Source: a virus
DNA: 36,594 nt
Strand: one strand, 5' to 3'
Virus record (IMG/VR): IMGVR_UViG_3300036846_000410
Span: 1-36,594 of that record
Under the pieces are notes generated by a model that saw only the letters and a program-made list of their open reading frames with translations, had not been told where the DNA came from and did no database searches. Shown here in pieces: positions 3,652 to 26,763 of this stretch (positions are counted from its first letter, which is position 1; every line of letters begins with the position of its first letter). The position numbers and the translations under genes are program-made.

Positions 3652-3914
3652 GACCCGAGTCCTTGCAGATGCGCAAGCGATGTGCGTAGACTGCCGGCAA
3701 GCGGGCCGGCGCAGTGCGTAAACACCACAACCGGCCCTGACCACCACCGCGAGGAAACCGCGACGATGGCTGCAACCCTCCTAGCACATCGCCCCATTGA
3801 GTCGTTCCCCCGGTTGTGCGCGCCTGCCCGGCACGCAACTGACGCGTTACGGCGGTGTCATGTCGGAAAGTCGGATAGATATCGTCGCGGTGAGGGCGCG
3901 CGCGGGCATCGGCG
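3652..3914 (-). promoter_or_regulatory. Leader between switch gene and GcrA-like gene
   Basis: This 263-base stretch has no convincing gene. A 9-10 base hairpin region around 3690-3716 contains two copies of GCCGGC (3693-3698 and 3705-3710) and is flanked by direct repeats GTGCGTA, with one TGCGTAGA and one TGCGTAAA context. The frame at 3596-3838 on the minus strand is a shadow of the regulator. Leftward transcription from the switch promoter must cross this leader before reaching the GcrA-like gene, so it may hold a delayed terminator, antitermination site or a separate activator-dependent promoter. No clear -35/-10 pair is seen. Confidence 0.35.
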
Positions 3915-4124
3915 CTACGCCGCTACTTTGGCGCGGCTGGCCTGGAGCGCCTTCATGGTAATGCCAGGGATGTCTTGGTCCTCGGCTGCCTCAATCAGCG
4001 CCTGCCAATGCCGATAGGGAATGCCGTCGTGGCGCCAGTTGTTGACGGCGTTCCTGGCCGCGCCAGTGATCGCCATCACCGCCTCACGGCCGCCGAAAGC
4101 GCAGATTACTTCGTCCGTGGTCAT
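3915..4124 (-). CDS. Carph-isopro-type HTH protein, Cro-like position
   Basis: The 69-residue protein matches the small phage family with the pattern FGG...A......V..WRxxGIPxxxW..ali.aA...gi....: visible are VICAFGGREAV, NAVNNWRHDGIPYRHW and a C-terminal GITMKAL. It is a compact helix-turn-helix DNA-binding protein. It reads divergently from the Xre-type repressor, the place where Cro or CII-like proteins sit in lambdoid switches. There is no ribosome-binding site before ATG 4124, and the predicted transcription start coincides with the A of this ATG, so the message is probably leaderless. Confidence 0.85.
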   Translation of the reverse strand: MTTDEVICAFGGREAVMAITGAARNAVNNWRHDGIPYRHWQALIEAAEDQDIPGITMKALQASRAKVAA

Positions 4125-4159
4125 GCTGTGACGATGACAGAAAAGCTGTTAGCCGTCAA
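4124..4159 (-). promoter_or_regulatory. Leftward switch promoter, leaderless type
   Basis: On the minus strand TTGACG (4159-4154) is followed after 17 bases by CATCGT (4136-4131). Counting 35 bases from the first T puts the start at 4124, the first base of the ATG. The -35 box is strong (5 of 6), the -10 box weak (3 of 6), which would suit an activated or tightly repressed promoter. The 17-bp operator candidate fills the spacer between the boxes. Confidence 0.5.
4135..4151 (+). promoter_or_regulatory. Operator candidate, copy 1
   Basis: TGACAGAAAAGCTGTTA contains the inverted pair ACAG and CTGT five bases apart. The identical 17 bases occur at 4669-4685 upstream of the rightward operon. Placement inside the leftward promoter spacer suggests that a bound repressor would block RNA polymerase. 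Confidence 0.6.
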
Positions 4160-4202
4160 CACGATTTCTGGCGCGATTTCTGCCGGGAAGCGTGGCAGGT
4201 TT

Positions 4203-4216
4203 TCTGCCGTGGCAGA
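4203..4216 (+). promoter_or_regulatory. Dyad at start of repressor gene
   Basis: TCTGCC-GT-GGCAGA is a perfect inverted repeat that contains the proposed GTG start (4209). Related half sites lie just upstream: GATTTCTG at 4163 and at 4175 and GTGGCAGG at 4192-4199. It overlaps a GATAAT box (4215-4220) that has GTGGCA 17 bases upstream. This looks like an autoregulatory operator of the repressor gene. Confidence 0.5.
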
Positions 4217-4604
4217 TAATCTCGTCGATTCGCAGAGGGTAGCTCAGCGGCTTCGCGCCGTGATGGGTGACCTTGGCCTCGAAACTGTCGGCCAGATGGC
4301 GAAGCTATTGGGCGCTGAGCGCAGCCAAGTGTCGAACTGGCTCCAGGGTTACAATCTGCCTCCTCCTCGGTGGATGACGATCTTGTGCCGGAAAAGGCCA
4401 GGTCTCACCTTGGATTGGATATATCGAGGGATTGCTGACGCCGTTCCGACCGCGCTGGCCATAAAGCTGGAGGCGTTGCAGCAGGGTTACGCGGTGCCGT
4501 TGCTTGAGGAGCAGCCCGCAACGGAGATGGTGGCTCGCTCGGTAGCACTGGCAATGTCGCAGTGCGGCGTCCCGGCGAAGAAGCGCCGAAAAAAGGCCAC
4601 CTGA
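4209..4604 (+). CDS. Xre-type HTH phage repressor
   Basis: The 131-residue product is a Cro/C1-type helix-turn-helix protein: RLRAVMGDLGLETVGQMAKL and GAERSQVSNWLQGYNLPPPR give helices 1-4, followed by the family tail RPGLTLDWIYRG and a short C-terminal extension ending in KKRRKK. There is no peptidase domain, so RecA-driven self-cleavage is not expected. GTG 4209 preserves helix 1 and leaves the operators outside the gene; ATG 4134 is a longer alternative that would translate through the operators, and ATG 4263 would delete helix 1. None has a good ribosome-binding site. It faces the carph-isopro gene and is followed by a terminator, so it is probably the prophage repressor. Confidence 0.8.
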   Translation: MADNLVDSQRVAQRLRAVMGDLGLETVGQMAKLLGAERSQVSNWLQGYNLPPPRWMTILCRKRPGLTLDWIYRGIADAVPTALAIKLEALQQGYAVPLLEEQPATEMVARSVALAMSQCGVPAKKRRKKAT

Positions 4605-4629
4605 AGAACCGAACCGAGCCCGCTAGAAA

Positions 4630-4657
4630 GGGCGCCGGGTAGCGCCCGACATTTTTT
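4630..4657 (+). terminator. Terminator after repressor gene
   Basis: GGGCGC (4630-4635) and GCGCCC (4642-4647) form a six-pair GC stem with a six-base loop, followed by a run of six T at 4652-4657. This is a standard intrinsic terminator on the plus strand, 25 bases after the repressor stop. It isolates repressor transcription from the early operon. Confidence 0.85.
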
Positions 4658-4660
4658 CTG

Positions 4661-4690
4661 TTGCATCGTGACAGAAAAGCTGTTATGCCA
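4661..4690 (+). promoter_or_regulatory. Early rightward promoter and operator copy 2
   Basis: TTGCAT (4661-4666) is followed after 17 bases by TATGCC (4684-4689), a weak promoter match. The 17-bp operator TGACAGAAAAGCTGTTA occupies 4669-4685 between the boxes, in the same orientation as copy 1. The expected start is near 4696, about 12 bases before ATG 4708. The operator identity is firm; the promoter boxes are inferred. Confidence 0.5.
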
Positions 4691-4707
4691 TCGTCATCAA
4701 CCGATGG

Positions 4708-5277
4708 ATGGCTTTCATTATGTTCCGCGATTTCGACGACGAGACGGTTCGGCACGGCGACCACCTCCCCTGTGTTACCGACGGGAGCGTGGGTAGCCGC
4801 CTGCCTCCCGAACCCGCGATTGTGGCAGTCCCGTGTCGGCTGTCCAGTGATTTAACGTTGCAATATCATGGCGATAGCGCCGCAGCGTTAATCCCGCATG
4901 ACAGCCAACAAGTTGCGCCGTCATCCGGAGATAATATCAGAACAAACGGTGCCCGACTCGCCGACGAACTCTGCCGCATTGCGCTGCGCGACACCGATTT
5001 CCTGGGCGATCTCACGCCCGGCGATGCGGTGCGGATCTGGGACCACGCCTGCAACGCCATCGACTGGGCGGCGGAAATCTGGAGCGAGAACCATGACGAC
5101 GCCACGGTGCCGCTCGAGGTGGTCGAGGCCGCGCGCAAGGAGCTGACGCAGCAGGCGCACGATATCCTCGCCGATCTGGCCACGCTGGAGGAGGACGCGC
5201 TGTTCGACGCGATGGAGGCCGGCGATCTCGACCACGACGGCAGCGCCATCAGCTATCCCCGCTATAGGAGCGTTTGA
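4708..5277 (+). CDS. Unknown early protein, first gene of rightward operon
   Basis: ATG 4708 gives 189 residues. The last 105 residues (RLADELCRIALRDTDFLGDL onward) have normal GC-rich codon choice and a charged helical pattern with many Asp and Glu, so this part is secure. The first 80 residues are less convincing: the codons around 4850-4960 are AT-rich (TTA, CAA, TAT, AGA), no good ribosome-binding site precedes 4708, and the only other in-frame starts are GTG and TTG codons such as TTG 4858. The true start is therefore uncertain. No domain is recognised. Its stop overlaps the next start as TGATG. Confidence 0.7.
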   Translation: MAFIMFRDFDDETVRHGDHLPCVTDGSVGSRLPPEPAIVAVPCRLSSDLTLQYHGDSAAALIPHDSQQVAPSSGDNIRTNGARLADELCRIALRDTDFLGDLTPGDAVRIWDHACNAIDWAAEIWSENHDDATVPLEVVEAARKELTQQAHDILADLATLEEDALFDAMEAGDLDHDGSAISYPRYRSV

Positions 5278-5474
5278 TGGCTTGGGAACATCCAGAGGAC
5301 GTAAAGGTGCGCCGCGAGCGGCTCGCTGCCGAAGCTATTTGGAAGGTGAGCGGCTCGCCCCCTCGACTGCTTGACGAGATCACGCGACCGAACACCGATC
5401 TAGCTCGCCAGCAAATGACTTGCTGGAAGCAGGCCCGGGCGGCTGTCGCCGCGCTATTCGACGCCGGAGTGTAG
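5277..5474 (+). CDS. Small unknown early protein, 65 residues
   Basis: ATG 5277 overlaps the TGA of the preceding gene (TGATG) and has GGAG 7 bases upstream. The product is a mixed-charge helical protein (VRRERLAAEAIWKV near the start, QMTCWKQARAAVAALFDAGV at the end) with no signal peptide or membrane segment. I do not recognise it. It is one of a run of short genes between the switch and the recombinase, the usual place of host-takeover or anti-defence genes in temperate phages. Confidence 0.7.
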   Translation: MAWEHPEDVKVRRERLAAEAIWKVSGSPPRLLDEITRPNTDLARQQMTCWKQARAAVAALFDAGV

Positions 5475-5476
5475 CC

Positions 5477-5653
5477 ATGGACCTCGATGCCATGACGCGG
5501 CTGATCCACCAATGCAGCACCGACCGCTTCCTCGCCGGCTGGGACCACGCCGCCGAGATGGTGCGCCTCCTGCACGGTGTGACGCTGGAGGACACCAAGC
5601 TGATCGCCGAGATGCGCGCCGAGCTGGCCGCGCTGACCACGGAGAGCGTGTGA
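5477..5653 (+). CDS. Small unknown early protein, 58 residues
   Basis: ATG 5477 follows the preceding stop by two bases and has GGAG 8 bases upstream. The protein is acidic and helical, starting MDLDAMTRLIHQCSTDRF and containing WDHAAEMVRLLHGVTLED. No family is recognised. Composition and spacing are typical of a real phage gene, but there is no homology evidence. Confidence 0.65.
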   Translation: MDLDAMTRLIHQCSTDRFLAGWDHAAEMVRLLHGVTLEDTKLIAEMRAELAALTTESV

Positions 5654-5657
5654 CGCC

Positions 5658-5834
5658 ATGAACATCGTCGTGCACGAGGACAACACCGGCTACGCGCCCG
5701 CATCCGAGCGGTTCGCTGCCTACGATGCCGACACCTACTGCGGTTGCCCGGACTGTCACTGTCCGGTCGGCACCGGCGCCACGCCCACAGAGGCCGAGGC
5801 GGACCTGCTGGAACTCATGGAGGACGCGCCATGA
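5658..5834 (+). CDS. Small Cys-cluster protein, 58 residues
   Basis: ATG 5658 lies four bases after the preceding stop; the end overlaps the next start as ATGA, which supports the frame. The 58-residue protein is acidic and has a tight cysteine cluster in the middle, YCGCPDCHCP (residues 29-38), giving four Cys in seven positions plus a His. This suggests a small metal-binding knuckle or disulfide-rich element. The C-terminal third is an acidic helix. Unknown family; a zinc-binding adaptor or inhibitor is possible. Confidence 0.7.
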   Translation: MNIVVHEDNTGYAPASERFAAYDADTYCGCPDCHCPVGTGATPTEAEADLLELMEDAP

Positions 5835-6094
5835 CCGACACCGACCTGTCCAAGTTCGGCATCCGCGACCTGGCGCAGAAGCACGTGGTGGTCTGCCGAC
5901 CCGTCGGCGGCGGCCCGATGTTTACGCTGCTGTGGCGAACTGCCGGCAAGCGCGGCAAGCCGTTGCCGCAGATCGGCGCCATCCTGAGCCGTGCCGGCGT
6001 CACGCTGTGGGTCACCGAAATTCGTGCACCTGGAACGCTCGACCTCGATGCCGTCAGCGGCCGGGTGCTGGTGGTCAAGAAGGACACGCCATGA
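5831..6094 (+). CDS. Unknown early protein, 87 residues
   Basis: ATG 5831 overlaps the stop of the Cys-cluster gene (ATGA) and the stop overlaps the next ATG in the same way. The protein looks like a compact alpha/beta fold with strands such as KHVVVCRPV, MFTLLWRTAG, GVTLWVTEIRAPG and SGRVLVVKKD. No signature residues or membrane segments are seen. I do not recognise the family. Coupling to both neighbours suggests that the three products are made in similar amounts. Confidence 0.7.
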   Translation: MTDTDLSKFGIRDLAQKHVVVCRPVGGGPMFTLLWRTAGKRGKPLPQIGAILSRAGVTLWVTEIRAPGTLDLDAVSGRVLVVKKDTP

Positions 6095-6276
6095 CCCTCA
6101 CCGACGAAGAGATCGAGACGATCCACCGCGTCGCGTCCGAGCGCTACGCCGTCGAGCTGCGCTGGGCGCTGCAAGACGCGGTGAACGGCGCGTCGCACTG
6201 GCGCACCGAGGCCCGCGCGCTGCTCGCGCTGATCAACGCGGGCATCGTGCCCGAGCCACCGAGACCATGGAGATAA
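6091..6276 (+). CDS. Small unknown helical protein, 61 residues
   Basis: ATG 6091 overlaps the preceding stop (ATGA). The product is a short charged helix-rich protein (TDEEIETIHRVASERYAVEL, then WALQDAVNGASHWRTEARAL) ending in a Pro-rich tail. No domain is recognised. It is four bases upstream of the next ATG, whose ribosome-binding site GGAG lies inside its last codons. Confidence 0.65.
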   Translation: MTLTDEEIETIHRVASERYAVELRWALQDAVNGASHWRTEARALLALINAGIVPEPPRPWR

Positions 6277-6280
6277 AACG

Positions 6281-6508
6281 ATGAAACGCTTATGCCTGAG
6301 TGCGGTCATAGAACTCCCTGAAGACGTGTTCGCAGCCGCCGACGTGTTCGCGTCAGTGAAGACGCCATGGAACACGGCGTTGCAGAACCTCAAAGCCAGC
6401 GGGGTGAAATTCGAGCACTCCCAGGACGTTATGGAGGTCAAGACCAAGGCGACGCGCAAGCCGCGCAAGCCGCGCCTGGTGGAGACGCCACCGGACGAGG
6501 CGGCGTGA
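6281..6508 (+). CDS. Small unknown basic protein, 75 residues
   Basis: ATG 6281 has GGAG nine bases upstream. The first 50 residues could fold as a small domain (AVIELPEDVFAAADVFASV, then TALQNLKASGVKFEHSQDV). The C-terminus is a Lys/Arg/Pro-rich tail (TKATRKPRKPRLVE) that could bind nucleic acid. Its stop overlaps the ATG of the Gp157-like gene (TGATG). Unknown function; the basic tail and the neighbouring recombination genes hint at a DNA-related role. Confidence 0.65.
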   Translation: MKRLCLSAVIELPEDVFAAADVFASVKTPWNTALQNLKASGVKFEHSQDVMEVKTKATRKPRKPRLVETPPDEAA

Positions 6509-6972
6509 TGCCATCGCACGCGGACACCATCGCCACGGCCCTGCGCGAGCGCGTGGCGGCGATCGGCGCATCCGTCGGCACCGCCGGGCGCGGCTTCACC
6601 AGGGCCGTCCAGGGCGTCGCAGGAGCCTCTGATGTGGAGGATGTGATGCGAGCCGCGCTCACCGCTGTGGACGCCGCCCGCGCGCTGCACAAGGCGGCCG
6701 ACACCGCGGTGGAGGACGCGACCGCGGCGCTCGCTGAGGCCATAGAGTCCAGCGGCATCCCCTCGGTGCAGACCGAGCACCTCACCGCGTTTCTGAAACG
6801 GCAGCAGGCGTTTGTGAGCATCTCCGATGAGGCGCTGATTCCGAAGCATTATTACGTCGAGACGCTGGACAAGCGTGCGCTCAAATCGGCCCTCGTCGAC
6901 GGCCTCGAGGTGCCGGGCGCATCGCTCGCCACCCGCAACGCCCGCACGCTCGCCATTCGCGCGCGGAACTAG
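6508..6972 (+). CDS. Gp157-like phage protein
   Basis: ATG 6508 overlaps the preceding stop. The 154-residue protein has a long Ala-rich helical N-terminal half (likely coiled coil, about residues 5-85) and a C-terminal part from about residue 108 that recalls siphovirus Gp157-type proteins: ISDEALIPKHYYVETLDKRA, then SALVDGLEVPGASL and the end TLAIRARN. Gp157-like proteins are common next to phage single-strand annealing genes and have been linked to resistance against phage in one host. Placed directly before the ERF gene, 10 bases away, it probably belongs to the recombination module. The family match is by pattern only. Confidence 0.65.
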   Translation: MPSHADTIATALRERVAAIGASVGTAGRGFTRAVQGVAGASDVEDVMRAALTAVDAARALHKAADTAVEDATAALAEAIESSGIPSVQTEHLTAFLKRQQAFVSISDEALIPKHYYVETLDKRALKSALVDGLEVPGASLATRNARTLAIRARN

Positions 6973-8951: not shown

Positions 8952-9167
8952 CTACGGAGGCCGCCGTCCGAGCGAGATCAGCACGGCGACCGCGGCCAGC
9001 ACCTCGCCGGTGATCGAGACCAGGTTCTCCCCGCTCCGCGTGCACATCGCCTCGACGCCCAGCATGCACCCGGCGAACACCAGCACCTGCTGCAGCAGTA
9101 CCGCGCCCACCAGCATGGCCAAGAGCAGCCACGCGCCCCGCACCGGGTCGAACGGGCCGCCGGGCAT
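8952..9167 (-). CDS. Small membrane protein, possible holin
   Basis: ATG 9167 gives 71 residues with two hydrophobic segments: about residues 12-37 (WLLLAMLVGAVLLQQVLVFA) and 52-65 (ITGEVLAAVAVLISL), separated by a short polar loop with two Cys, and a basic C-terminal GRRPP. This is the layout of a class II-type holin or another small membrane partner. It follows the GH26-like gene by nine bases and has no obvious ribosome-binding site, so translation may be coupled. The holin call rests only on size, topology and context. Confidence 0.6.
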   Translation of the reverse strand: MPGGPFDPVRGAWLLLAMLVGAVLLQQVLVFAGCMLGVEAMCTRSGENLVSITGEVLAAVAVLISLGRRPP

Positions 9168-11052: not shown

Positions 11053-12759
11053 GCCATATGGAATGGCCCGACCGATATTCGGTGTGGCACCGCCCAAGCT
11101 GGTATCAATCAGCCGCCCCGACACCGTGGGGCTGCGCAGATACTGCTGGAGGTATCGGTTGGCGACACCAAATGGCAGCAATGCCGCGCCGGACAAAGGG
11201 TGCTCGGCCAGCGATATCGCTGCTGCTCTTGGCGCGGTCCCGCTCTCCGGCATAGCTCCAAAGAACTGCTTGCCGATATCGGCTAGGCCGCCCACCGTGC
11301 CGGTCTTGCCGCCAGCCAATGACCCGTATTTTCGTTGCTGATTGAGCACCTGCTGCTGTAGGCCACCGAGCGAAATGTCGCCCGTGGTCGACTTGTCCAC
11401 CAGTGGCTCGACCGTCTTCATGATCCGGTACTGATATCGGAGATTACGGAGTTGGTCGGCAATATCAGGCGTGGGAGACGACGCCACCAGCCGATCCTCG
11501 ACCGCCTGTCCAATACGCGACAGATAGGGCTGCGCCGCCGATGGCGCGGCATCGGCGATCTTCGCGAGGGGGCCGTCGCTCGCGGTCAGGGATAGATATT
11601 GCTGCGGCGTGATGGGGCCGCCCTTGAATGCGTCACCAACTTCACGGATCGCGCGACCGACATGCCCCACCGTGTCAGGATCGAGGAAACGGGTTGCATC
11701 TGTGCCGACAGCGGCGAGGTCACCGGCTAGCGTGTTGCCGCCGGTAACCTGCGGCACCTGATTAGTCACGTTGGTAAATCCGTCGCTGATGTTCTTTTTT
11801 ATCCCCGTCCACTCCGCTGGACCGAACGTGTCTGCACTGCCGCCCATTTCACGCGCTAGTGCGCCCTGCACGGCACGATGAGTTGCGAGATCGGAAGCTC
11901 CCACGCCGCTAAGCGGTAGTTTGTTGAGCGTGTCAGCCATGATCCGTAGAACCGGATTGGAAGACATCGCAGTGATCGGCACATCAATGCCCATCTGCCG
12001 CGCCCGGTCTGCCAACGCGGCAATGGCGGGCTGTACCCCGCCGGCATAGCCGCGCAGTGTGTCAATCGCCTTGGTGACCCCGCCGAGCATCGGCCCCGCC
12101 ACGCCGCCGGTGATCGCGCCAGTAGCGATCTGGTCCGATACTGGCTGGTCCGATGCCGAAGATGTTAGTGCTGCCTGGGTGGCACCGGTAGTGGCGCCCT
12201 GGCCAGCCAACTGCGCGCCGCGGGCAATCGTGCCCTCTGCCGGCTGCAGTGCGGCAATCGCCTGCGCCACCTTGCCGGCAGCGCCAGGAATTGCCGCAGC
12301 AGCACGCCCGACCAGGGCGCCAGCGCCACCAATCAGCGGTAACGTCGCCAAGGTCTGACCACCAACACGTCCGATGCTCGCCTGCGTGGAATCCGCATGC
12401 GCCTGCTCCCAGGCGTCGCGGTCGGCCTTGTTGGCCTGGCGCAGCGCATCGACGTCGACAGTGACGCCAGGAGGCGCGAGCTTGTTAGCGGTCCACGCCA
12501 ACCCCTCGGCGCCGGTATCGCCCACATCCCGCACGCCACGGGCGACGCCCTCGAGTAGCGGCGCATTGACCGGGCCGGCAATGGCCGGCTTACCAGCGGT
12601 GGCGAGGTTGGTTTTGATGTTGTCCCAGGCGCGCTCCAGGAACCCTCGGTCGTCCACTGGAGCATCCGGCGGCGCTCCAGCATGGTATTCAGCCGGCGCG
12701 GTCAGCGAGCTGCTGTCGGTGTCGCTGGTGTCGTCGCCGACGTGGTAATCGTCTGCCAT
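11011..12759 (-). CDS. Internal virion / DNA-ejection protein, 582 residues
   Basis: ATG 12759 overlaps the stop of the gene above (TGATG); the seven upstream codons are discarded. The 582-residue protein has an acidic N-terminus, then Ala/Gly-rich hydrophobic stretches (residues about 125-165 and 185-225, for example TLATLPLIGGAGALVGRAAA and IATGAITGGVAGPMLGGV) and a long helical body. This layout is typical of podovirus ejection proteins that leave the capsid and form a channel across the envelope. It is the last gene of the morphogenesis operon. The call is from position, composition and glycine-zipper segments, not from a recognised family. Confidence 0.7.
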   Translation of the reverse strand: MADDYHVGDDTSDTDSSSLTAPAEYHAGAPPDAPVDDRGFLERAWDNIKTNLATAGKPAIAGPVNAPLLEGVARGVRDVGDTGAEGLAWTANKLAPPGVTVDVDALRQANKADRDAWEQAHADSTQASIGRVGGQTLATLPLIGGAGALVGRAAAAIPGAAGKVAQAIAALQPAEGTIARGAQLAGQGATTGATQAALTSSASDQPVSDQIATGAITGGVAGPMLGGVTKAIDTLRGYAGGVQPAIAALADRARQMGIDVPITAMSSNPVLRIMADTLNKLPLSGVGASDLATHRAVQGALAREMGGSADTFGPAEWTGIKKNISDGFTNVTNQVPQVTGGNTLAGDLAAVGTDATRFLDPDTVGHVGRAIREVGDAFKGGPITPQQYLSLTASDGPLAKIADAAPSAAQPYLSRIGQAVEDRLVASSPTPDIADQLRNLRYQYRIMKTVEPLVDKSTTGDISLGGLQQQVLNQQRKYGSLAGGKTGTVGGLADIGKQFFGAMPESGTAPRAAAISLAEHPLSGAALLPFGVANRYLQQYLRSPTVSGRLIDTSLGGATPNIGRAIPYGLLGPIDAVRGESQ

Positions 12760-15215
12760 CACTCTGACGCCCCAAGCCACGGCATCTGCTCACGCGGCAG
12801 TGCCGCCGGCTCCCATCCCGCAGGTGGATTGTGCATGGTCAGCTTGCCATTCGGCAGCACCATGAACGAGCCGGGCGCTATTTTCTGCGATGCCCAGTTA
12901 TCTTTCTGCACTTGGCTGAGCCCGGCCGGCATCTTCTGCACCATTGGACCTAACTTCGCCTGCGCCCGCTCCTCGGCGTCCGCCAGCGACGAGCCTGGCA
13001 CCGTCAGCTGCCGATTGACCTCGCCGGCATAGTCCACCTTCCGCTGCTCCAGCTGTTGCAGATAACCCAGCATCGCGGTGCGCACCGGCAGCGACATCTG
13101 CGAGGTCGGATTGGCCGCCTGAACAAACCGCAGCATCATGTTGTCCATCCGGCCTAGGCCCTTGCCGGCTTGCAGTGTCAGTCTGGACATGACGCTGTCG
13201 AAAAGTTGCTGGCCTTGCAGCCTGTCGGCGTTGCCGATGCCGAGCGCACCCGCGAGGCTGGTCAGTGACTGGCCGCCGATCTCGATCTTGCCGAACACGT
13301 TGCCCGGCCCGGCCTGATCGGAAAACAGCTTGGCCAGTTGTAGCTGATTGATGTTGTCGTTCGCTGCGGCTGAGGCGGTTTGCAACTCGGTCTGCCGCCC
13401 CTTGATGATGTCCGCGTTGGTGCGCGCCGCCATTCCCTCCGGCGTCTCGCCGAGCGGCACCGGCGGCGCCGGCGTGCCGATCGGTTCAACCTTGCCGAAC
13501 TGATCGGAACGATACCCTACGGTTGGATTGTAGGCGCCTCCCAGTGTCTTGCGTGCCTCGTCATCCGGCAGAACACGATAGCGCGGCACCTTGGCCTGCT
13601 CGGTCGCTGCTGCTGCGAGGTCTTTCATCACCTCGGCCACCTTCTCAGGGTCGCCAGTAGCACCGGCAGCCGCGATCCGTGCCGCAAACGCCTTCCGCAC
13701 ATCCGGCGGAAGGTCTTGGATCTGCGCCAGCGCCGCGGCGGGCGCGGGTGCCCCAGCGCCCGGCGGGGCATCGGGAACGATGCCGGTCAACTGCCCGGTC
13801 TGCGGATCGTAGTGTCGCGCACCGGCCGGCGTCCCTGGCAGCGCACCACCGGCCTGTGCCACCTGCGTGCCGGCTGGTGGGCCGCCCGCGGCCTCCACGC
13901 CCTTGAGCATCGCCGCCACGTCGCCGGCCGTTCCCGGCATCTGTCCTGGCGCCGGCGTGGTCGTGGGCACACCTGGCCCCGCCATGAGGCTGGAGGGCGG
14001 TCCAGGCGGCGTGATGGCGCCGGTCTGCGTGCCTCCCCCTGTCGGGAGCTGGTCGCCCTGTACAGGCGCGGGACCGCCCGCTGGCGGGGTGGTCGTGGGC
14101 GGCACCGCGGACGGCGCGACGGGTGCGACCGGCGCCGGCGACAGCATCTCGCTGGCCTTTGTTGCTGCATCCTGCGCGGCTTTCAGCTTTGCCGCCGCGA
14201 TTGCCAGTTCCTGCTGCTTGATGGCCAAGCCGCCCTGCGCCACCCCGAGTTGCCCGGCCTCAGTCGTTGCCCGCTGCTGCCCGGTCCGCGCCTGCTGCTG
14301 CGCCACCCCAAGCTGCCCGGCCTGGATCTGCCGGCCCTGCTGCGCGCCCAGGATGGTGAGCGCGTTCTTCACCTGATCGCGCTGCGCCTGCTGCTGCGAG
14401 TAGGCCATGTCCTGGCTGCCGATCTCCGACTCCTGCGCGCCCTGTAGTCCGGCCGCCAGCGCCTGGCCCATCGTGGTGCGCACCGGGTGGTAGCCGCTGT
14501 TGGCCAGCAACCCCATACCGAAGTTCATCAGCGACCGCGTGCCGGCGGCCTCGCGCGCATCGCCGGTGAGGCCGCCACCGCCGCCGCCGAACGCCTCGCC
14601 CAACCGCGAGATGAACGACTGTTCCTTGCCGCTGTCGGGTTGCTGCGAGCCCATGTTGAGTTGGTGCAGCACCCGCGCCACGTCGTCGTCGGACGCGCCC
14701 ACGGCGGGCATCGCGAGCAGCCCCGAGTCCGGTGTGCCGGTGTCAGCCATCTGTGCCCTCGGTGGATTGGAGGTCTTGGGAGATTGTGCCGTGGTAGCGG
14801 ACGCAAGCTCGAAGTGCATCGGGTCGCGCGTGTCGCCTTTCCAGTTGCCGCCCCAGGTCAGGCCATGACTGGCGGCGATCGCGCCAATATCGTCGGGCAG
14901 ATCGGACCCACCACCGCCGCCCTGCGGATTATTCCGCCAGTTGATATCAGCGGCATGACCGTAGGCATGCTGCGACCACGTGTCGGTGCCGGCGATCGGA
15001 CGCGCGTTGTAACCCCCGGTCTGCGACTGATCGAGCTTGTAGCCGCGGCTTTCGAGGTCGCCGAGCAGCCCGCCAAAAGCGTCTGCGGCGTCTTTGGCGA
15101 TGGTCAGCCGCACCCCGGATGGTGAAGTAATGGTTGTCAGCTCGGGCTGCGGCATCGGCCCAAGCGCGGCGACCTGAAACGGCTGGTCGTCGTCGGTGGT
15201 GGTCGTGGTGCCCAT
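12759..15215 (-). CDS. Virion protein with N-terminal M15 peptidase domain
   Basis: ATG 15215 overlaps the stop of the preceding gene (TGATG). The 818-residue protein begins with a D-Ala-D-Ala carboxypeptidase/L-Ala-D-Glu peptidase-like (M15) domain of about 140 residues: GGYNARP, the zinc motif WSQHAYGHAADIN with H83 and D90, and DPMHFEL with H134. After it come Gln/Ala-rich coiled-coil stretches (about residues 240-350), a Pro/Gly/Thr-rich linker (about 355-470) and a helical C-terminal region. It is probably an internal virion protein that opens the peptidoglycan during DNA entry. No other cell-wall peptidase is visible in the window. Confidence 0.85.
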   Translation of the reverse strand: MGTTTTTDDDQPFQVAALGPMPQPELTTITSPSGVRLTIAKDAADAFGGLLGDLESRGYKLDQSQTGGYNARPIAGTDTWSQHAYGHAADINWRNNPQGGGGGSDLPDDIGAIAASHGLTWGGNWKGDTRDPMHFELASATTAQSPKTSNPPRAQMADTGTPDSGLLAMPAVGASDDDVARVLHQLNMGSQQPDSGKEQSFISRLGEAFGGGGGGLTGDAREAAGTRSLMNFGMGLLANSGYHPVRTTMGQALAAGLQGAQESEIGSQDMAYSQQQAQRDQVKNALTILGAQQGRQIQAGQLGVAQQQARTGQQRATTEAGQLGVAQGGLAIKQQELAIAAAKLKAAQDAATKASEMLSPAPVAPVAPSAVPPTTTPPAGGPAPVQGDQLPTGGGTQTGAITPPGPPSSLMAGPGVPTTTPAPGQMPGTAGDVAAMLKGVEAAGGPPAGTQVAQAGGALPGTPAGARHYDPQTGQLTGIVPDAPPGAGAPAPAAALAQIQDLPPDVRKAFAARIAAAGATGDPEKVAEVMKDLAAAATEQAKVPRYRVLPDDEARKTLGGAYNPTVGYRSDQFGKVEPIGTPAPPVPLGETPEGMAARTNADIIKGRQTELQTASAAANDNINQLQLAKLFSDQAGPGNVFGKIEIGGQSLTSLAGALGIGNADRLQGQQLFDSVMSRLTLQAGKGLGRMDNMMLRFVQAANPTSQMSLPVRTAMLGYLQQLEQRKVDYAGEVNRQLTVPGSSLADAEERAQAKLGPMVQKMPAGLSQVQKDNWASQKIAPGSFMVLPNGKLTMHNPPAGWEPAALPREQMPWLGASE

Positions 15216-15673
15216 CACAGATTAAGCAGCCCGCCGCGCACGTAGCTCTGCTGGCCGCCGGCGCTGCCGCCCGGCATCAGTGCGTTGCTGCGCTGCTGCA
15301 GCAGCGTGAGCAGCGTGCCCAGATCAGGCCCGCGACCTGGCACCACCTGCGACTGCGCCATCTGCGCCTGCTGCTGCCGCTGGAGGGCGCTCGCGTTCGC
15401 GTCCTTGGCGCCGCCAGCGCCAGCGCCCTTCAACTGGCCAAGCGCCTTGCCAATGTCGCCCTTGTTGCGGTCCCACCACGAGCCGGCTGGGTTGTCGCCG
15501 ATCGTGTTGCCGGCGAACGGATCAGAACTTCCCATGCCGGCGATCGCCGCATCGGAGGCAAACGGCGAGCCGGTCGACATCGGCAATTCTTCCGGCAATG
15601 CCGCCATCGTGTTGCCGCCGAACAAGTCGCCGCCGCCGAAGCTGCCGAAGTCGAAGCCACCGAACCCACTCAT
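15215..15673 (-). CDS. Gly-rich structural protein, 152 residues
   Basis: ATG 15673 opens a 152-residue protein with a Gly/Phe-rich N-terminus (FGGFDFGSFGGGDLFGG), a middle with GSWWDRNKGDIGKALGQL and a Gln-rich helix (SALQRQQQAQMAQSQV), ending in GGQQSYVRGGLLNL. It lies between two large internal virion proteins and its stop overlaps the next start. Small Gly/Gln-rich proteins in this place are common in podoviruses as internal or assembly proteins. No family is recognised. Confidence 0.7.
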   Translation of the reverse strand: MSGFGGFDFGSFGGGDLFGGNTMAALPEELPMSTGSPFASDAAIAGMGSSDPFAGNTIGDNPAGSWWDRNKGDIGKALGQLKGAGAGGAKDANASALQRQQQAQMAQSQVVPGRGPDLGTLLTLLQQRSNALMPGGSAGGQQSYVRGGLLNL

Positions 15674-19952: not shown

Positions 19953-20960
19953 TCAGCGCTGCCTCGGCAGCATCCGCATGCCGCCACGCAGCGGTGCCGA
20001 GCGCAGCATCGCGGGCGCCACAGCGGCTGCTACAGCGGCGGAGGCCTGCACGCCGGCGTAGATGATTTTGTAGCAGGCGAGCACCGGATTGACGATCGAC
20101 AGCAGCGTGCCGGAGCCGGGCAGCGTCATGGTGTGGTTGTGCGAACCATCTGGATTGATGCCGAGTTGGAGGTTGCCCGAGTAGGAGTTGTTATGCGCGT
20201 GCAGGCCGGAGACAGAGATGTTGTGGGCGTGGGCGCCTTGGGTATCGGTGAAGATGTTGTGCGCGTGCAACCCTTGGGTGTCGGTGACGACGTTGGAACT
20301 GCCGAACACCGAACTCATCACCGAGAAACTGCCTGACGACACGCCGGTGCCATTGGCCGCCGGGATCGTCACGTTATGCGCGTGGCTGCCTTGGGCGTCG
20401 GTGCCGCCACCGTGCGCGTGGCTGCCCTGCACGTCGGTGGTGTGGCTGTGCGAGCCTTGGGCATCGATGATGTGGGTGTGGTTGCCGCCGGCCGCGGTGG
20501 CGCCACCGTGGCTGTGCGCGGCGACGGTGTCGGTGGTGAGTGCCAGCGCCGGCAGGTTGGCCAGCGCGATCGAGCGCGAGATGGCACCGGATTTCTGCGC
20601 GAAGCTATAGGCGACGGTATTGCCGTTCTCGTCGATCGTGGTGCCGGCGGAGACCAGCGCCCGGCCCGGCGTGGGCGGCAGCGCGAAATTGGTGCTGCCA
20701 TCGCCCGCGCCCCAGTAGGTCTGGATCACGGCAAACAGCGCGCTGTAGGTGGTGCGAGAGATCAGCCTGCCGTCGCAGATCAGCCAACCGGGCGGCGCGA
20801 CGGTCCCGGCGAAGTCGATCATCCCGCCGATCGGCGTGCCTTGGAACAGCGCGGTGTCGATAACGTCCAGATCGGCGTTCAGCTTCGCCCCCCAGCTGTC
20901 CCGCGAGGCTCCAATTTCGGGTTTTACGAGAGCCAGGTATGTTGTTGCGGTATCAGCCAT
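19953..20960 (-). CDS. Tail-collar fibre with nine HxH motifs
   Basis: ATG 20960 has GGAG 7 bases upstream. The 335-residue protein has an N-terminal anchor ([20 protein letters not shown], then [11 protein letters not shown]) shared with two other fibres here, and a phage tail-collar domain at about residues 44-102 ([35 protein letters not shown]). From residue 149 to 276 nine HxH motifs occur (149, 161, 171, 181, 193, 232, 244, 254, 274), such as GSHAH and GLHAHN; in T4 fibre tip gp37 such motifs bind iron. The C-terminus [17 protein letters not shown] is the usual end of collar proteins. It is likely a trimeric receptor-binding fibre. Confidence 0.88.
20133..20516 (-). repeat. Imperfect repeats coding for HxH motifs
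   Basis: Within the fibre gene the DNA has imperfect repeats read on the plus strand as variants of GTGCGCGTGGCTGCC and GTGGGTGTC, with units of about 30-36 bases. They encode nine HxH motifs with GS/GA/GL and D(A/T/V)QG linkers. Such repeats can change copy number by slippage or recombination and so alter fibre length. Confidence 0.6.
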
Positions 20961-21539: not shown

Positions 21540-22088
21540 ATGCCGAGAAAATTGCCCGACATTTCGTACGTTCGAGAGTGCCTGGACTACAACCCTGCAA
21601 CAGGCATCTTCACGTGGCGCGAGAGACCGCCGCGACACTTTCCGTATCCTGCGGCCCATAAGTGGTGGAATAGTAGATTTGCTGGTCACGTGGCCGGTTC
21701 GCCGCTGAAGCAGTGTTACTGGCAGATATGTCTGATGGACCATCCCTACAAAGCACACCGCCTTGCATGGTTGCTGACGCACGGAGAGCCAGTTCCCGAT
21801 ACTCTTGACCACATTGATGGCAACGGCGCGAACAACCGGATCAGCAATCTTCGTGCCGCAACTCCCGAGGAAAGCAACCAAAACCGAAGGACGCCACGTA
21901 ACAGTACTACTGGCACGATAGGCGTCACGCTCCGTTCGACGAGGAACGGCCGCCCCTTCTACGAAGTCAGGGTAGCGGCAAACCGCAAACGGCATCTCGT
22001 GGGCTTCTTCGCCACCCTCGACGAGGCAATAGCTGCGCGCAAAGAGGCTGCTAAGCGACTGCACGGAGAGTTCTCCCCTTATGACTGA
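21540..22088 (+). CDS. HNH-AP2 homing endonuclease, antisense in late operon
   Basis: The 182-residue protein is a typical freestanding homing endonuclease. Residues 70-115 form the HNH motif (YKAHRLAWLLTHGEP, LDHIDGNGANNRISNLR), with H73, H91, D93 and N99/N103 as key residues. Residues 124-172 form an AP2 DNA-binding domain (TGTIGVTLR, YEVRVAANRKRHLVGFF, DEAIAARKEAAKRLHGEF). ATG 21540 has no clear ribosome-binding site. It lies on the opposite strand between two tail genes and does not overlap either. Such genes cut an empty allele and spread by repair. Confidence 0.92.
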   Translation: MPRKLPDISYVRECLDYNPATGIFTWRERPPRHFPYPAAHKWWNSRFAGHVAGSPLKQCYWQICLMDHPYKAHRLAWLLTHGEPVPDTLDHIDGNGANNRISNLRAATPEESNQNRRTPRNSTTGTIGVTLRSTRNGRPFYEVRVAANRKRHLVGFFATLDEAIAARKEAAKRLHGEFSPYD

Positions 22089-22107: not shown

Positions 22108-23334
22108 CTAGAGGTCCGCAAAAGCGGTGTAGGTGATGTCCAAGAAACCAACGCCAGTGGCTGGTGTAGTGCCTCCGACACCGAACGACTGCGCTTGCCC
22201 CAACGACGTGGTCGTCGGCGTGTTGAAATTCGCCTGCCCGCCGCCCAGCGCGACCGTCACATTCGGAACGGCGCGCATCGCAACCGGCAAGAACGCTGTG
22301 GTGACACTGTTGCCACCGGCACTGGCCGCGTTAAAAGTGCTGTAAACTCTACCTACGCAATAGAACCGCTGGCAGCGCCGCAGATCGTCGCCGAAGGCGA
22401 TGCGCTCGAACACCGTCGCCACCGATCCAGCTTCTAACTGTGCCATTCCAACCGTGCCGGCGTTGAACTCCACAGTTATGCCGCCATTCGCGCCAATACC
22501 TGTCACGGTGATCGGGCTAGCGGCATAACTGCCAGCGTTAACGCGCCCTTGTGCCGTGCCAACCCATGACAGCGTATAGCTACCGCCTTCCACGTCGGCT
22601 GACTCGATAGTTTGTTGCAGCGAGCCGGCGGCGATGGTGATGGTGGTCGTCGGAAACACCTGCGTGAAGGTGTAGGTGCAGCCGCCGGCGCCAGCCTTCC
22701 AGCGGTCGTGGGCATACGCTGCTGCGGCGAGCGCGGTGCCGCTGGTGTAGCCACGCTGATTAATGCGAAAGCCGCCGTTGTGCAGCCGGTTGCGCCCGAC
22801 ATTGTTGGCCGCGCCAACAACCGCGTTGTCAACGTAGCCCTTGTTGGTCGCGTGGTTCACCACGGTCGGCGTCCATGGCAGCAGCAGCGATCCGCTGACG
22901 GTCCCGCCGGCGAGCGGCAGGAAGGTGTCGACATAGCCCTTGTTGGCGGCGTGCAGCGTCGCCGATGGCGCCCCGGAGAGCGTGAGCGGCCCGGTCATCG
23001 CCGCGCCGGAGAGCGGCACCACCGCGCTCCAGGCGTTGGCGTGGCGGCCATAGGTGTTGGCGTCGTTGGCGGCGTCGGTGAACTGGTGCGCGTCGGCATA
23101 CTGCTTGGTGACAGCGCCGAGCGCGGTGGACGGATCGGCGGCCAGCGTGAGCCCGCCCAGCATGGTGCCGCCGGACAGCGGCAAAAACTTGGCGGACGCG
23201 CCCGAGGTCGCCAGCGCGCCGTCGAGCACATCGGCGTTCGCGTTGAGGTGGGTGCCCCACGCTTCGGCGTCCTGGTCGTATATCGGCTTGTATAGACCGA
23301 GGTTCGGGGTGGTGGTGTAGTCGGTGCCGCTCAT
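22108..23334 (-). CDS. Tail fibre with triplicated fibre repeat
   Basis: ATG 23334 has GAGG just upstream. The 408-residue protein opens with the anchor MSGTDYTTTPNLGLYKP, WGTHLNANADVLDGAL shared with the fibre at 26173. It is followed by three fibre repeats starting LPLSGGTM, VPLSGAAM and LPLAGGTV, each ending near the pattern ATKxYVD (VTKQYAD, ANKGYVD, TNKGYVD). The C-terminal 220 residues are beta-rich (RLHNGGFRINQRGYTSG, AYAHDRWKAGAGGCTY, then VGMAQLEAG), typical of a receptor-binding head. It is likely trimeric. Its start lies six bases after the stop of the signal-peptide protein above. Confidence 0.88.
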   Translation of the reverse strand: MSGTDYTTTPNLGLYKPIYDQDAEAWGTHLNANADVLDGALATSGASAKFLPLSGGTMLGGLTLAADPSTALGAVTKQYADAHQFTDAANDANTYGRHANAWSAVVPLSGAAMTGPLTLSGAPSATLHAANKGYVDTFLPLAGGTVSGSLLLPWTPTVVNHATNKGYVDNAVVGAANNVGRNRLHNGGFRINQRGYTSGTALAAAAYAHDRWKAGAGGCTYTFTQVFPTTTITIAAGSLQQTIESADVEGGSYTLSWVGTAQGRVNAGSYAASPITVTGIGANGGITVEFNAGTVGMAQLEAGSVATVFERIAFGDDLRRCQRFYCVGRVYSTFNAASAGGNSVTTAFLPVAMRAVPNVTVALGGGQANFNTPTTTSLGQAQSFGVGGTTPATGVGFLDITYTAFADL

Positions 23335-23340
23335 GTCGCC

Positions 23341-23883
23341 TCACGATCCGCTGAGAAAATCGACGGCCATGTACTGCAGCGAAAGCGAGCCTGCGGTCGC
23401 CGCCGTGGTATTGAGCGCATTCACAGTAACGGTAATCGGCGCGCTGTCCGACACGACGGTGGTCACCGAGTTAACGCCAGCCGGGGCGGCTGTTGTCGTG
23501 CCGATGGCGGCAAACGATTGCGTGCTCGACCCTGTCTTGGTCAGCCATATTTCAAAGTAAAAGCGATTCGCTCCGACCGCGGCGGCGTTCATAGAACTAA
23601 CGAGGGAGGCGTTGAGCTTGACTGATATGGTCTTTACGTCGGTGGTGTTGGCAGCGGTCCCGGCAGCCACGACGTGGATGGTATCACCGACGTTGGCCAG
23701 GGTGCCGGCCGGCACCGTGTAGGTCTGCAACACCTCCGCGACGCTGGTCGAGGCGCAGGCGCAGCTAACCAACGTGCCGGTGAAATACAGCCGCTGAAGG
23801 CCACGCTTGTTGAACAGGATATCGGCCGACGCCGACTGCGACAAAAGGCCAAGCAGCGCCGCCAGGGCCAGCCAGCGCTTCAT
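23341..23883 (-). CDS. Tail-region protein with Sec signal peptide (180 aa)
   Basis: ATG 23883 overlaps the stop of the gene above (ATGA). The first 20 residues, MKRWLALAALLGLLSQSASA, have a basic N-region, hydrophobic core and an ASA cleavage site, a clear Sec signal peptide. The mature part is Thr/Ala/Val-rich beta-structure (LQRLYFTGTLVSCACA, TYTVPAGTLANVGDTIHVVA, RFYFEIWLTKTGSSTQSF) and resembles beta-sandwich tail or decoration domains. Two close Cys may form a disulfide, which would agree with periplasmic export. Virion proteins are normally assembled in the cytoplasm, so a signal peptide is unusual here. Confidence 0.75.
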   Translation of the reverse strand: MKRWLALAALLGLLSQSASADILFNKRGLQRLYFTGTLVSCACASTSVAEVLQTYTVPAGTLANVGDTIHVVAAGTAANTTDVKTISVKLNASLVSSMNAAAVGANRFYFEIWLTKTGSSTQSFAAIGTTTAAPAGVNSVTTVVSDSAPITVTVNALNTTAATAGSLSLQYMAVDFLSGS

Positions 23884-24239
23884 CGCGCGAACTCAAGGGC
23901 AGTGAATGCCGCGCCCACCGTCGCGCTCCACACGCTGATTCTCCCGGTCGGCACCGCGACCGGGCAAATGTATTGCGAGCCTCCCGGCAGCCAGAACGAA
24001 CCCGCGCCATTCGACGCCGTGCCGTCGATCGCCACCCACAGGTCGGTGCCGCCGAGCGCCTGGATCTCACAGCCGACGCGCCTGGTGTTCGCCGCCAGCA
24101 CCTGCTGCGAGGTCGACGCCGACGCGATGGTGCCGCTGGCATTGGTGGTAGCGCCACCGCCCGCGATGCTGCCACTGCCCGACTGCGCGAGTGCCCATGC
24201 TGGAAATAGCAGCACCACCATCAATACCACCAAGCGCAC
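23880..24239 (-). CDS. Small exported beta protein with signal peptide (119 aa)
   Basis: GTG 24239 is chosen because GGAGG lies 7 bases upstream; the longer frame from GTG 24263 would start before that site. The N-terminus MRLVVLMVVLLFPAWALA followed by Q is a clear Sec signal peptide. The mature 100 residues are Ser/Gly/Thr-rich with ASTSQQVLAANTRRVGCEIQ, GTDLWVAIDGTASNGAGSFW and VPTGRISVWSATVGAAF, like a small beta-sandwich of the kind found in tail or capsid decoration proteins. It couples to the next gene by ATGA. Function unknown; it may act outside the cytoplasm with its two neighbours. Confidence 0.75.
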   Translation of the reverse strand: MRLVVLMVVLLFPAWALAQSGSGSIAGGGATTNASGTIASASTSQQVLAANTRRVGCEIQALGGTDLWVAIDGTASNGAGSFWLPGGSQYICPVAVPTGRISVWSATVGAAFTALEFAR

Positions 24240-24265
24240 GGGACATCCTCCTGAGTCGCTCACGA

Positions 24266-26188
24266 TCAGAACCCCACCGCGATTGAGGGATTAACCACCG
24301 CGCCAACAGTCACGGCGCCGAAGCTCGCAGGCAGCGCCGTCGCCAGCGTGGTGTCGGTGTAGGTCGCCGAATACTGCGCAGCGAACGGATTGCGCAGCGC
24401 GTTGACCGGCTGCGCTGCCACGCTCGGCGTCGCCGTGGCGCTCCACGCCGAGACGATCCACACATAGCACTGGGTGCAGCCGAGAGTGACCGAGATTGCA
24501 CCGGGGCTGAGCGCGCCGAGCGCGGACACCGGCAGGATGCCGCTGTCGTAAAGTTTGTTCCCTGGCGCGGTGGCTAACCCATTGTCGGCGTAGATGCCCA
24601 ACCGCGCGGACCCGCCGGTAGTGGCCGCGATCGTCGCAGTCAGCGCCTTGACGATACCGGGGCTGCTCTGCGAGATCCAGAACGGGTAGGCATAGAGACG
24701 ACCAGCGGTCGGCGTCGCGTTGGTGGTATCAGTCAGGTTCGCCGTGCCGAACCGGATATTGGTCCCGGTAACGCTTTCGTTGTGGATCGCCTCGAGCAGA
24801 TTACCCGTCATATTCACGTCGTTGACCGCGACATAATCGACGCCTTTGCCGATACGGATCGCGTGGTACTGCGTCGGCATCGACTGGTCATCGGTAAGAG
24901 AGCCGCCAGTGATCGTGACGTGCTGCACGCCATCCTTGATATTCACGGCGCCAACCGGCGGCGTTACTTGTGCCACCTGATTGCCGTTGCTGATCGTGTT
25001 GCCGGTGATGTCGGTATAGCGCGCCAGCACGTCGAGGTTGATGCCGATGCCCTTCTGATTACGCAGCGTATTATTGCTGACCACAGTGTGGCGCGTGTTG
25101 ACTTCAATGCCGTCGCTGAGGGTATTGCAGCCCTGGTCGATGGTGTTGCCGTCGATGACGACGCCATTAGCTTTATCGGTGGTGAGTGTCCCCATCGCAG
25201 TCGCCGTGCCAGGGTTGACCGTCCGGTTCGCCACCAACACCGTGCCGCTGGTGATCGAGGCGGCGACGTAAACCCCGTTCCAGGCCGCCGGAGTCATGCC
25301 ATCAATCACGAAATACTCGGCTGCGAGGATGCCATGCGCGGCGGATGTGGTGAGCGTGGCCTGTCCGCCGCTGGTCGCCGCCCAGGTCGCAGCCGTCACG
25401 TTGACGACGGCACCCGGATAAGTGCCGATCTGGCCGCCGCCAGTGACCAACGGGCCGGTCGATAGGCAATGGCAGTTCCAGATGTGGTTGCCGCGCACGA
25501 TCGTGCCCTGGCCATTGACGCCGATCGCATCGATGCCGGTGTTGGATATCTCATTGTCGGCGATGATGATGCCGCGCTTATAGTTCAGTGCCCAGATGCC
25601 ATAGGTCTGCAGCGTGGTATCGGTCGGCCCCATTCCGATGATGGCGTTGCGATTGACGATGTCATAATCGCCGGTGACGGCGATCGATCTCGCATAGCTG
25701 TTGATGAAGCGGTTGTTGGTGATGCGGGCATAGGCACCCGACACCGATAGCTCAGCATTACTGACCGAATGATTAGTGCCGTTGCCGTCGATGGTGCAGC
25801 CGCGGATTTCGCTTTGGTCGCCGCTGATCGTCAGCATCACGCCGAGTAGCGCCGGGCCGCGCTGGATCACGGTGCCCCAGTTCGGGCACTCGATCACGGT
25901 GTTGAACCGAGTCACCGTCTGCGCGGCGGTCAGAACGTATGTCGTGTTCCGCGCCAGCCGGACGATGGCGCCGCCGGTTGTCAGTGAGGCGAGCGCGGTC
26001 GGCAGGTCGGCATAGTCGGCGACGTTGACCACCTCGGCCTGACGGTCGGCCAGCTTCCGCGCCACCGTCGAGCCGGTGGCGATCGTGGTGCTCTGGCTCA
26101 CGTCGAGCGTCGGGTTGGGCTGCGCGAGCGCTGCCGTGGGCGCCAGCAGCGCCGCGAGCAGGCCGGCGAGCTTCAGGGCGCGACGCAT
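24266..26188 (-). CDS. Parallel beta-helix protein with Sec signal peptide
   Basis: ATG 26188 starts a 640-residue protein with signal peptide MRRALKLAGLLAALLAP, then TAALA before Q23. From about residue 60 to 480 it has the short, regular asparagine-rich turns of a right-handed parallel beta-helix: TISGDQSEIRGCTIDGNGTN, RITNNRFINSYARSIAVTG, GIIIADNEISNTGIDAIGV, VVSNNTLRNQKGIGINLDV. Such folds are typical of tailspike depolymerases and pectate-lyase-like enzymes. The C-terminal 150 residues are a separate beta domain. Catalytic residues cannot be assigned. A tailspike with an export signal is unusual; an exported enzyme that modifies the cell surface is an alternative. Confidence 0.85.
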   Translation of the reverse strand: MRRALKLAGLLAALLAPTAALAQPNPTLDVSQSTTIATGSTVARKLADRQAEVVNVADYADLPTALASLTTGGAIVRLARNTTYVLTAAQTVTRFNTVIECPNWGTVIQRGPALLGVMLTISGDQSEIRGCTIDGNGTNHSVSNAELSVSGAYARITNNRFINSYARSIAVTGDYDIVNRNAIIGMGPTDTTLQTYGIWALNYKRGIIIADNEISNTGIDAIGVNGQGTIVRGNHIWNCHCLSTGPLVTGGGQIGTYPGAVVNVTAATWAATSGGQATLTTSAAHGILAAEYFVIDGMTPAAWNGVYVAASITSGTVLVANRTVNPGTATAMGTLTTDKANGVVIDGNTIDQGCNTLSDGIEVNTRHTVVSNNTLRNQKGIGINLDVLARYTDITGNTISNGNQVAQVTPPVGAVNIKDGVQHVTITGGSLTDDQSMPTQYHAIRIGKGVDYVAVNDVNMTGNLLEAIHNESVTGTNIRFGTANLTDTTNATPTAGRLYAYPFWISQSSPGIVKALTATIAATTGGSARLGIYADNGLATAPGNKLYDSGILPVSALGALSPGAISVTLGCTQCYVWIVSAWSATATPSVAAQPVNALRNPFAAQYSATYTDTTLATALPASFGAVTVGAVVNPSIAVGF

Positions 26189-26763
26189 ACCACGCCCCCG
26201 TTGTTATAGAGATCGCCCGAGACGATGCCCTTGGTCGCAAGATCGGCCGGCGTGCCGGTAGACTTCGGCAGGGTCACACCACGCAGCGGCAGGTACGGCG
26301 TGCCGCTGACCTGCGAGCGTTGCCAGACGGCGCCATTGCTGACCATCCAGTCGCCGGCACTCGCCGCAGTGATGCCGTCAATCGCCGGGCTGATCGCCGC
26401 ATTGGCAACGGAACACAGATAGTAGGTGCCGCCCTGCGCCCGCGCCCCACCAACCATTCCACCCGAGGCGAGCAGCGGCGTATTGGTCGCCGCGTTCCAG
26501 GCGCCGCTATAAATGAGCGTGCCGGTCAGCACCGGAAGCTGCGCCACAGGCACCAGCCCGGTCCCATCCAGCGAGGCGACACCGTTCACGACGCCCTTCT
26601 GCGCCAGCGGCACAAAGGTCGCCGTCGCCGTCGAGGCCAGCAGCGCGCCATCCAGCGTGTCGGCGTTGCTGTTCAAGTACTGCCCCCAGTTGCTGACGGC
26701 GGCGTTGAATACCGGTTTCAACAACCCGAGGTTCGGCGTCTGGGTGTAGTCGGTGCCGCTCAT
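26173..26763 (-). CDS. Short tail fibre with shared anchor, 196 residues
   Basis: The start is ATG 26763, overlapping the stop of the gene above (ATGA); residues upstream of it in the same frame are a shadow. The protein opens MSGTDYTQTPNLGLLKP, WGQYLNSNADTLDGAL, almost the same as the fibre at 22108. It continues with VASLDGTGLVPVAQLPVLTG, TLIYSGAWNAATNTPLL and ends PADLATKGIVSGDLYNNGG. The C-terminal part looks like a fibre connector rather than a large receptor domain. Its end overlaps the beta-helix gene by 16 bases. It may anchor the beta-helix protein or the long fibre. Confidence 0.82.
   Translation of the reverse strand: MSGTDYTQTPNLGLLKPVFNAAVSNWGQYLNSNADTLDGALLASTATATFVPLAQKGVVNGVASLDGTGLVPVAQLPVLTGTLIYSGAWNAATNTPLLASGGMVGGARAQGGTYYLCSVANAAISPAIDGITAASAGDWMVSNGAVWQRSQVSGTPYLPLRGVTLPKSTGTPADLATKGIVSGDLYNNGGVVCVAP

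Follow-up and report, generated by a model that had tools for sequence, protein, structure and literature searches.

The appendages of phage tails and capsids are assumed to remain in the cytoplasm of the host up to lysis, and soluble phage depolymerases and tailspikes are likewise cytoplasmic proteins that are freed by lysis. Phage T4 encodes Spackle, a soluble periplasmic protein of superinfection exclusion. The use of host Sec for late phage proteins has been described for secreted endolysins, namely Lys44, which bears a signal peptide, and the SAR endolysins (PMC6116005), and two phage proteins exported to the envelope, Llp of T5 (PMC9586334) and Rtp45 (PMC12685063), block adsorption and stop further infection. 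Added receptor-binding protein has also been reported to compete for adsorption (PMC12946066). No report of signal-bearing fibre modules was found in the literature searched. In this study we examined three neighbouring genes of an uncultivated phage that, judging from sequence features, very probably encode swapped appendage modules with real export signals.

The window, by which we mean the whole stretch of DNA analysed, is a record of 36,594 bases from an uncultivated, soil-type virus. Profile searches identified it as an SU10/GP4-like podophage, with matches for an SU10-type capsid, portal and adaptor and for a Gp80 fibre (PF17236, E 1e-65; PF23899, E 1.8e-143; PF24175, E 3.7e-16; PF23140, E 3e-10), and phage class and signals together suggest a Gram-negative host. 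An earlier note on this DNA had placed three open reading frames between two fibre genes, and this arrangement was confirmed: bh640 (24266..26188), p119 (23880..24239) and p180 (23341..23883), all on the minus strand, lie between two anchored fibre genes at 26173-26763 (fib196) and 22108-23334 (fib408), a position suggestive of late expression. The start codons of all three genes are well supported. The bh640 ATG lies within the last fib196 codons, the two genes overlapping by 16 nt (26173..26188, minus strand), and the start codon of p180 (ATG) shares bases with the p119 stop. For p119 the GTG at 24239 was chosen, 7 nt downstream of a Shine-Dalgarno AGGAGG (24247..24252, minus strand), whereas the mechanical ORF begins at 24263. 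An HNH endonuclease gene (PF13392, phrog_99; 21540-22088, plus strand) lies on the opposite strand inside the fibre region and is a possible driver of exchange there. Elsewhere in the window, an 819-aa protein encoded between likely DNA-ejection proteins (12759-15218, minus strand), the N-terminal stretch of which matches endolysin PHROGs, is probably a virion-associated lysin.

The Sec/SPase I signals claimed for all three proteins were borne out by strong scores and by the presence of a basic n-region, a hydrophobic core and an A-x-A type site. The signal peptide of bh640 (26123..26188, minus strand) comprises 22 aa, MRRALKLAGLLAALLAPTAALA followed by QPNPTL, with the cut between A and Q; that of p119 (24186..24239, minus strand) comprises 18 aa, MRLVVLMVVLLFPAWALA followed by QSGSGS, cut between A and Q; and that of p180 (23824..23883, minus strand) comprises 20 aa, MKRWLALAALLGLLSQSASA followed by DILFNK, cut between A and D. 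Scores were obtained with a purpose-written scorer of n-, h- and c-regions (threshold >=4), calibrated on 84 E. coli K-12 genes with location classes assigned by gene name, among which the threshold was reached by 0/43 cytoplasmic proteins and by 11/14 of the exported ones that are not lipoproteins. On this scale bh640, p119 and p180 scored 5.12, 5.96 and 5.18, so the low scores that had been named as refuting export were not obtained with our own calibrated scorer; per 20,000 whole-protein shuffles, 10, 0 and 20, respectively, attained the observed score. Only one further called gene of the window, a 71-aa ORF at 8952-9167, exceeded the threshold, and no second run of three comparable signal genes was present in the window. 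None of the three proteins has a lipobox, the +1 residues being Q, Q and D, and none has a Pfam or PHROG match to a muralytic domain.

The fibres of the same phage are built differently at their N-termini. Both fib196 (minus strand; phrog_31460 tail, E 1e-14), directly upstream of bh640, and fib408 (minus strand; phrog_4492 tail fibre, E 1.7e-29), directly downstream of the three genes, are signal-less and start with the anchor MSGTDYTQTPNLGLLKP, defined by the motif T-P-x-L-G-L-x-K-P with x-W-G and D-x-L-D, and a related version of this anchor is found in the signal-less collar fibre (19953..20960, minus strand; Pfam Collar PF07484, E 1.3e-18). This N-terminal anchor is absent from bh640, p119 and p180, and no second, anchored copies of their domains occur in the window. 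The earlier description of the three proteins as tail-like holds for their domains, which are anchored fibre parts in relatives, but these copies lack the anchor common to the three other window fibres. By sequence comparison, their mature domains are appendage modules that in relatives form the C-terminal parts of anchored signal-less fibres.

The mature part of bh640 is a right-handed beta-helix of tailspike/pectate-lyase type (Pfam Beta_helix PF13229, E 3.7e-8) in which no catalytic residues could be assigned, and would represent a depolymerase-like module. Homologous beta-helices in four contigs all lack a signal; they are clearly preceded by a TPxLGLxKP-type fibre anchor in L075 and L077, and by fibre-type linker sequence in L007 and L030. 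The p119 protein is a jelly-roll/beta-sandwich (phrog_22789, E 2.3e-7, residues 28-116), its mature part being predicted by AlphaFold2 as a beta-sandwich with pLDDT mostly above 90. Its best match among solved structures, a weak one, is the receptor-binding domain of the PM2 spike P1, and a sequence search against solved structures returned nothing meaningful. Anchored fibres of L004 and L067 end in a signal-less p119-type domain, a stand-alone signal-less homologue in the cultured Sinorhizobium phage phiM5 is annotated as 'detected in phage particle proteome', and tblastn identified signal-less homologues in four rhizobial/Ochrobactrum phages. Among cultured phages there was no tblastn match for bh640, signal-bearing p119, p180 or two signal-bearing relatives. 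As for p180 (AlphaFold2 mean pLDDT 79), its fold matches are of lectin/CBM type and weak (TM-score 0.29-0.46 by query), and given these low scores the model is termed no more than a lectin-like beta-sandwich. Its homologues bear a signal in L082, L084 and L108, and are anchored and signal-less in L067 and L112.

A comparison with sister phage L002, the capsid of which is 99% identical to that of the window, suggests how such genes are assembled. DNA similarity between the two spans 23818-24195; it starts close to where the p119 signal ends and stops just past the p180 signal. The mature part of p119 is under purifying selection between them (dN 0.07, dS 0.32), and the L002 signal differs in sequence while retaining the same signal properties, which argues that the p119 signal is beyond chance. 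Conversely, L002 keeps the p180 signal (MKRWAALAALLGLLSQSAEA) before a largely different mature domain, and L003 retains the signal of bh640, together with the first residues of its mature part, before a different beta-helix (DNA block 26067-26275, 84%). Recombination breakpoints fall at or near signal/mature junctions, and signal and domain behave as separate modules; terms such as 'moves', 'swaps' and 'late' are used here and below on the basis of gene order. The L002 p119-p180 pair lies outside the fibre region, beside the terminase and upstream of the portal gene, in a genome that retains full-length anchored fibres. The pair at this other site and the occurrence of p119 without the other two (e.g. 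in G006) led us to reject an obligate three-protein complex, and the exported complex that had been proposed was not upheld.

The fib196-bh640 junction is also found beyond the window, the same fibre C-terminus being followed by an overlapping signal-bearing gene in L003, L006 and L182. In L182 (4345-5860), where the neighbouring genes are unlike those of this phage group, the fibre C-terminus PKSTGDPADLAAKGI.SGDLY.NGG.VCVAP is held in common and the overlapping gene is a signal-bearing p119. A programmed frameshift joining fib196 to bh640 was considered and rejected, since a signal-like hydrophobic segment would be buried in the fibre; the same overlapping start in three other phages also contradicts it.

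Signal-bearing small domains of two families were detected in more than 60 uncultivated contigs, singly or in runs of 2-5 genes. In the p119 family, distinct full domains number 41 with a signal and 22 without one. These numbers do not equal independent events, as many members are close relatives on metagenomic contigs with approximate gene calls, and they exclude the L151 domain, located at a contig end with its upstream part missing. Members of the second small family (LDVATVTTGG...) were recovered from 25 contigs; in 24 the signal score clears the threshold, and the exception, L088, has a signal plausible by eye; a scan of GTDB genomes with this family as query found no relative. Runs reach five signal genes in L102 and four in L108, with several in L104 and L105. 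Short motifs, QPNPTLD and QASPTY, are shared at the mature N-termini across signal proteins. Signal-bearing companions include tail-protein domains (G005), a GDSL/SGNH-like hydrolase (L006) and, by its GLSGGG motif and with no Pfam match, a possible alpha/beta hydrolase (G009). The sites occupied vary: between TerL and portal (G002, G003, L002), portal and capsid (L087) or capsid and adaptor (G005, G009), or in the fibre region (window, L003, L006).

Three further observations concern these contigs. Beside the capsid-adaptor genes of L203 (1759-2847, minus strand) lies a gene for a 362-aa protein that carries a signal, a GLSGGG motif and numerous cysteines; by eye it appears alpha/beta-hydrolase-like, and it has no Pfam match. 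Among the larger appendage proteins with a signal, RR-x-hydrophobic starts occur in L006 (RRNML; 4658-6556), L197 (RRGLL; 12125-13438) and L108 (RRDLV; 3319-4848), so some may use Tat instead of Sec. Finally, proteins of related phage contigs (L074:635-1270; L012:676-1311; L016/L018:735-1370; L193:7643-8449) combine a Sec signal with a C-terminal PEP-CTERM motif (VPEPxSLALLGxGLLGLGLVRQRR), the L074 and L012 genes being situated just upstream of a large-terminase-like gene; a limited literature search found no report of phage PEP-CTERM proteins.

If the signals work, a switch of compartment should be accompanied by a change in cysteines. Indeed, at two alignment columns of the p119 family both residues are cysteine in 41/41 signal-bearing members and neither is in 22/22 signal-less ones, which have W, F, Y, L, S or other residues there (Fisher p 3e-16, kinship ignored). 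A tree built with the cysteine columns removed places this contrast on 2-3 independent switches (at least two well supported, three inferred), all concordant and too few for a sign test. In the window protein, Cys57 and Cys92 would form a disulphide, and the family pattern is such as oxidative folding outside the cytoplasm might leave. Similarly, two cysteines are invariant in 15/15 aligned members of the second family. In the beta-helix family, cysteine counts over the aligned region do not separate exported from anchored members (3-5 versus 5).

Export is likely because strong signals, their recurrence in many phages, the cysteine pattern and the breakpoints at signal/mature junctions converge; the export proposed in the earlier note is thereby supported, and the interpretation given there as a whole is supported in part. 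We give a probability of roughly 0.48 to the fuller account, in which modules whose anchor has been replaced by a signal are exported late and work on the infected cell's envelope, masking or trimming its glycans. The virion anchor of three appendage modules, one beta-helix and two lectin-like beta-sandwiches, would have been swapped for a Sec signal; the proteins would be made with the late proteins, then exported and cleaved, and folding would take place outside the cytoplasm, with a disulphide in the case of p119. Their site of action would be the infected cell's own envelope, not the particle, where they might bind or trim the surface glycans that this phage family uses as receptors, with the benefit that further adsorption to infected cells or debris would be blocked and the release of progeny eased. 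A decoy of the phage's own receptor-binding domain is left unsupported by the window, which holds no second anchored copy. Envelope action also has against it the small number of independent switches in the cysteine test and the lack of a cysteine contrast among beta-helices.

Also against it, a phiM5 homologue is present in virions, and the signal genes of G005 and G009 directly follow the capsid gene in the manner seen in phiM5, an order that fits a particle role as well. These points, the overlap of the bh640 start with the fibre gene end, kept across phages, and the motifs common to mature N-termini speak for the chief alternative, in which the proteins would undergo oxidation in the periplasm and be added to the particle, as decoration or fibre tips, at lysis or later. 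We regard this as doubtful: the anchor of the three other window fibres is missing, the genes change location among TerL-portal, capsid-adaptor and fibre sites, the L002 pair sits by the terminase and portal genes despite full-length anchored fibres in that phage, and we know of no precedent for tail-fibre assembly after lysis. It is unlikely, too, that a large uncultivated phage group has a two-compartment virion maturation, with appendages routed by Sec or Tat, disulphides made in the periplasm and attachment at lysis. The cassette-like behaviour and variable position of the three genes and their relatives, and the PEP-CTERM surface proteins of several related phages, two of them encoded just upstream of a terminase-like gene, could instead indicate host-conversion cassettes, lectins or enzymes altering matrix, clumping or biofilm with no link to adsorption; this seems distinctly improbable for genes within the structural region of a window in which a non-exhaustive Pfam/PHROG annotation revealed no lysogeny system. 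Least credible of all are hydrophobic N-termini unused for export, on ordinary virion or chaperone-assisted proteins: sequence prediction cannot demonstrate cleavage and our scorer yields a calibrated score only, but three signals in a row, the recurrence of diverged yet functional-looking signals and the cysteine pattern are not easily accounted for unless the proteins are exported.

Should a recurrent exchange of anchor and signal on one and the same domain, accompanied by a corresponding gain or loss of two cysteines, prove true, many soil phages would deploy host-binding modules from inside the infected cell, and this would offer a route to superinfection exclusion or to progeny release that can be tested. 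It would also caution against annotating such genes as virion fibres, and would point to them as suppliers of secreted glycan binders and depolymerases stabilised by disulphides.

Compared with known systems, Llp and Rtp45 may serve as functional precedents of a different kind, as both are small and unrelated to the window proteins and Llp is a lipoprotein, whereas the window proteins lack a lipobox. The secreted endolysins differ in having a lytic domain. Soluble depolymerases and tailspikes resemble bh640, a beta-helix with a tailspike-type N-terminal motif, but the three window proteins carry Sec signals. In phiM5 (GenBank MF074189), gp13 is a p119-type protein that adjoins the SGNH hydrolase gp14 just after the capsid gene, both being annotated as particle-detected, and unlike p119 it has neither signal peptide nor cysteine. 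The fibres of GP4/SU10-like podophages (Gp80 fibre I and the anchored fibres) belong to the same phage class and gene neighbourhood as the three proteins, from which the anchor is missing and in which signals are present; with dozens of related environmental phages showing the same switch, copies of the host-binding part are probably sent out of the cytoplasm.
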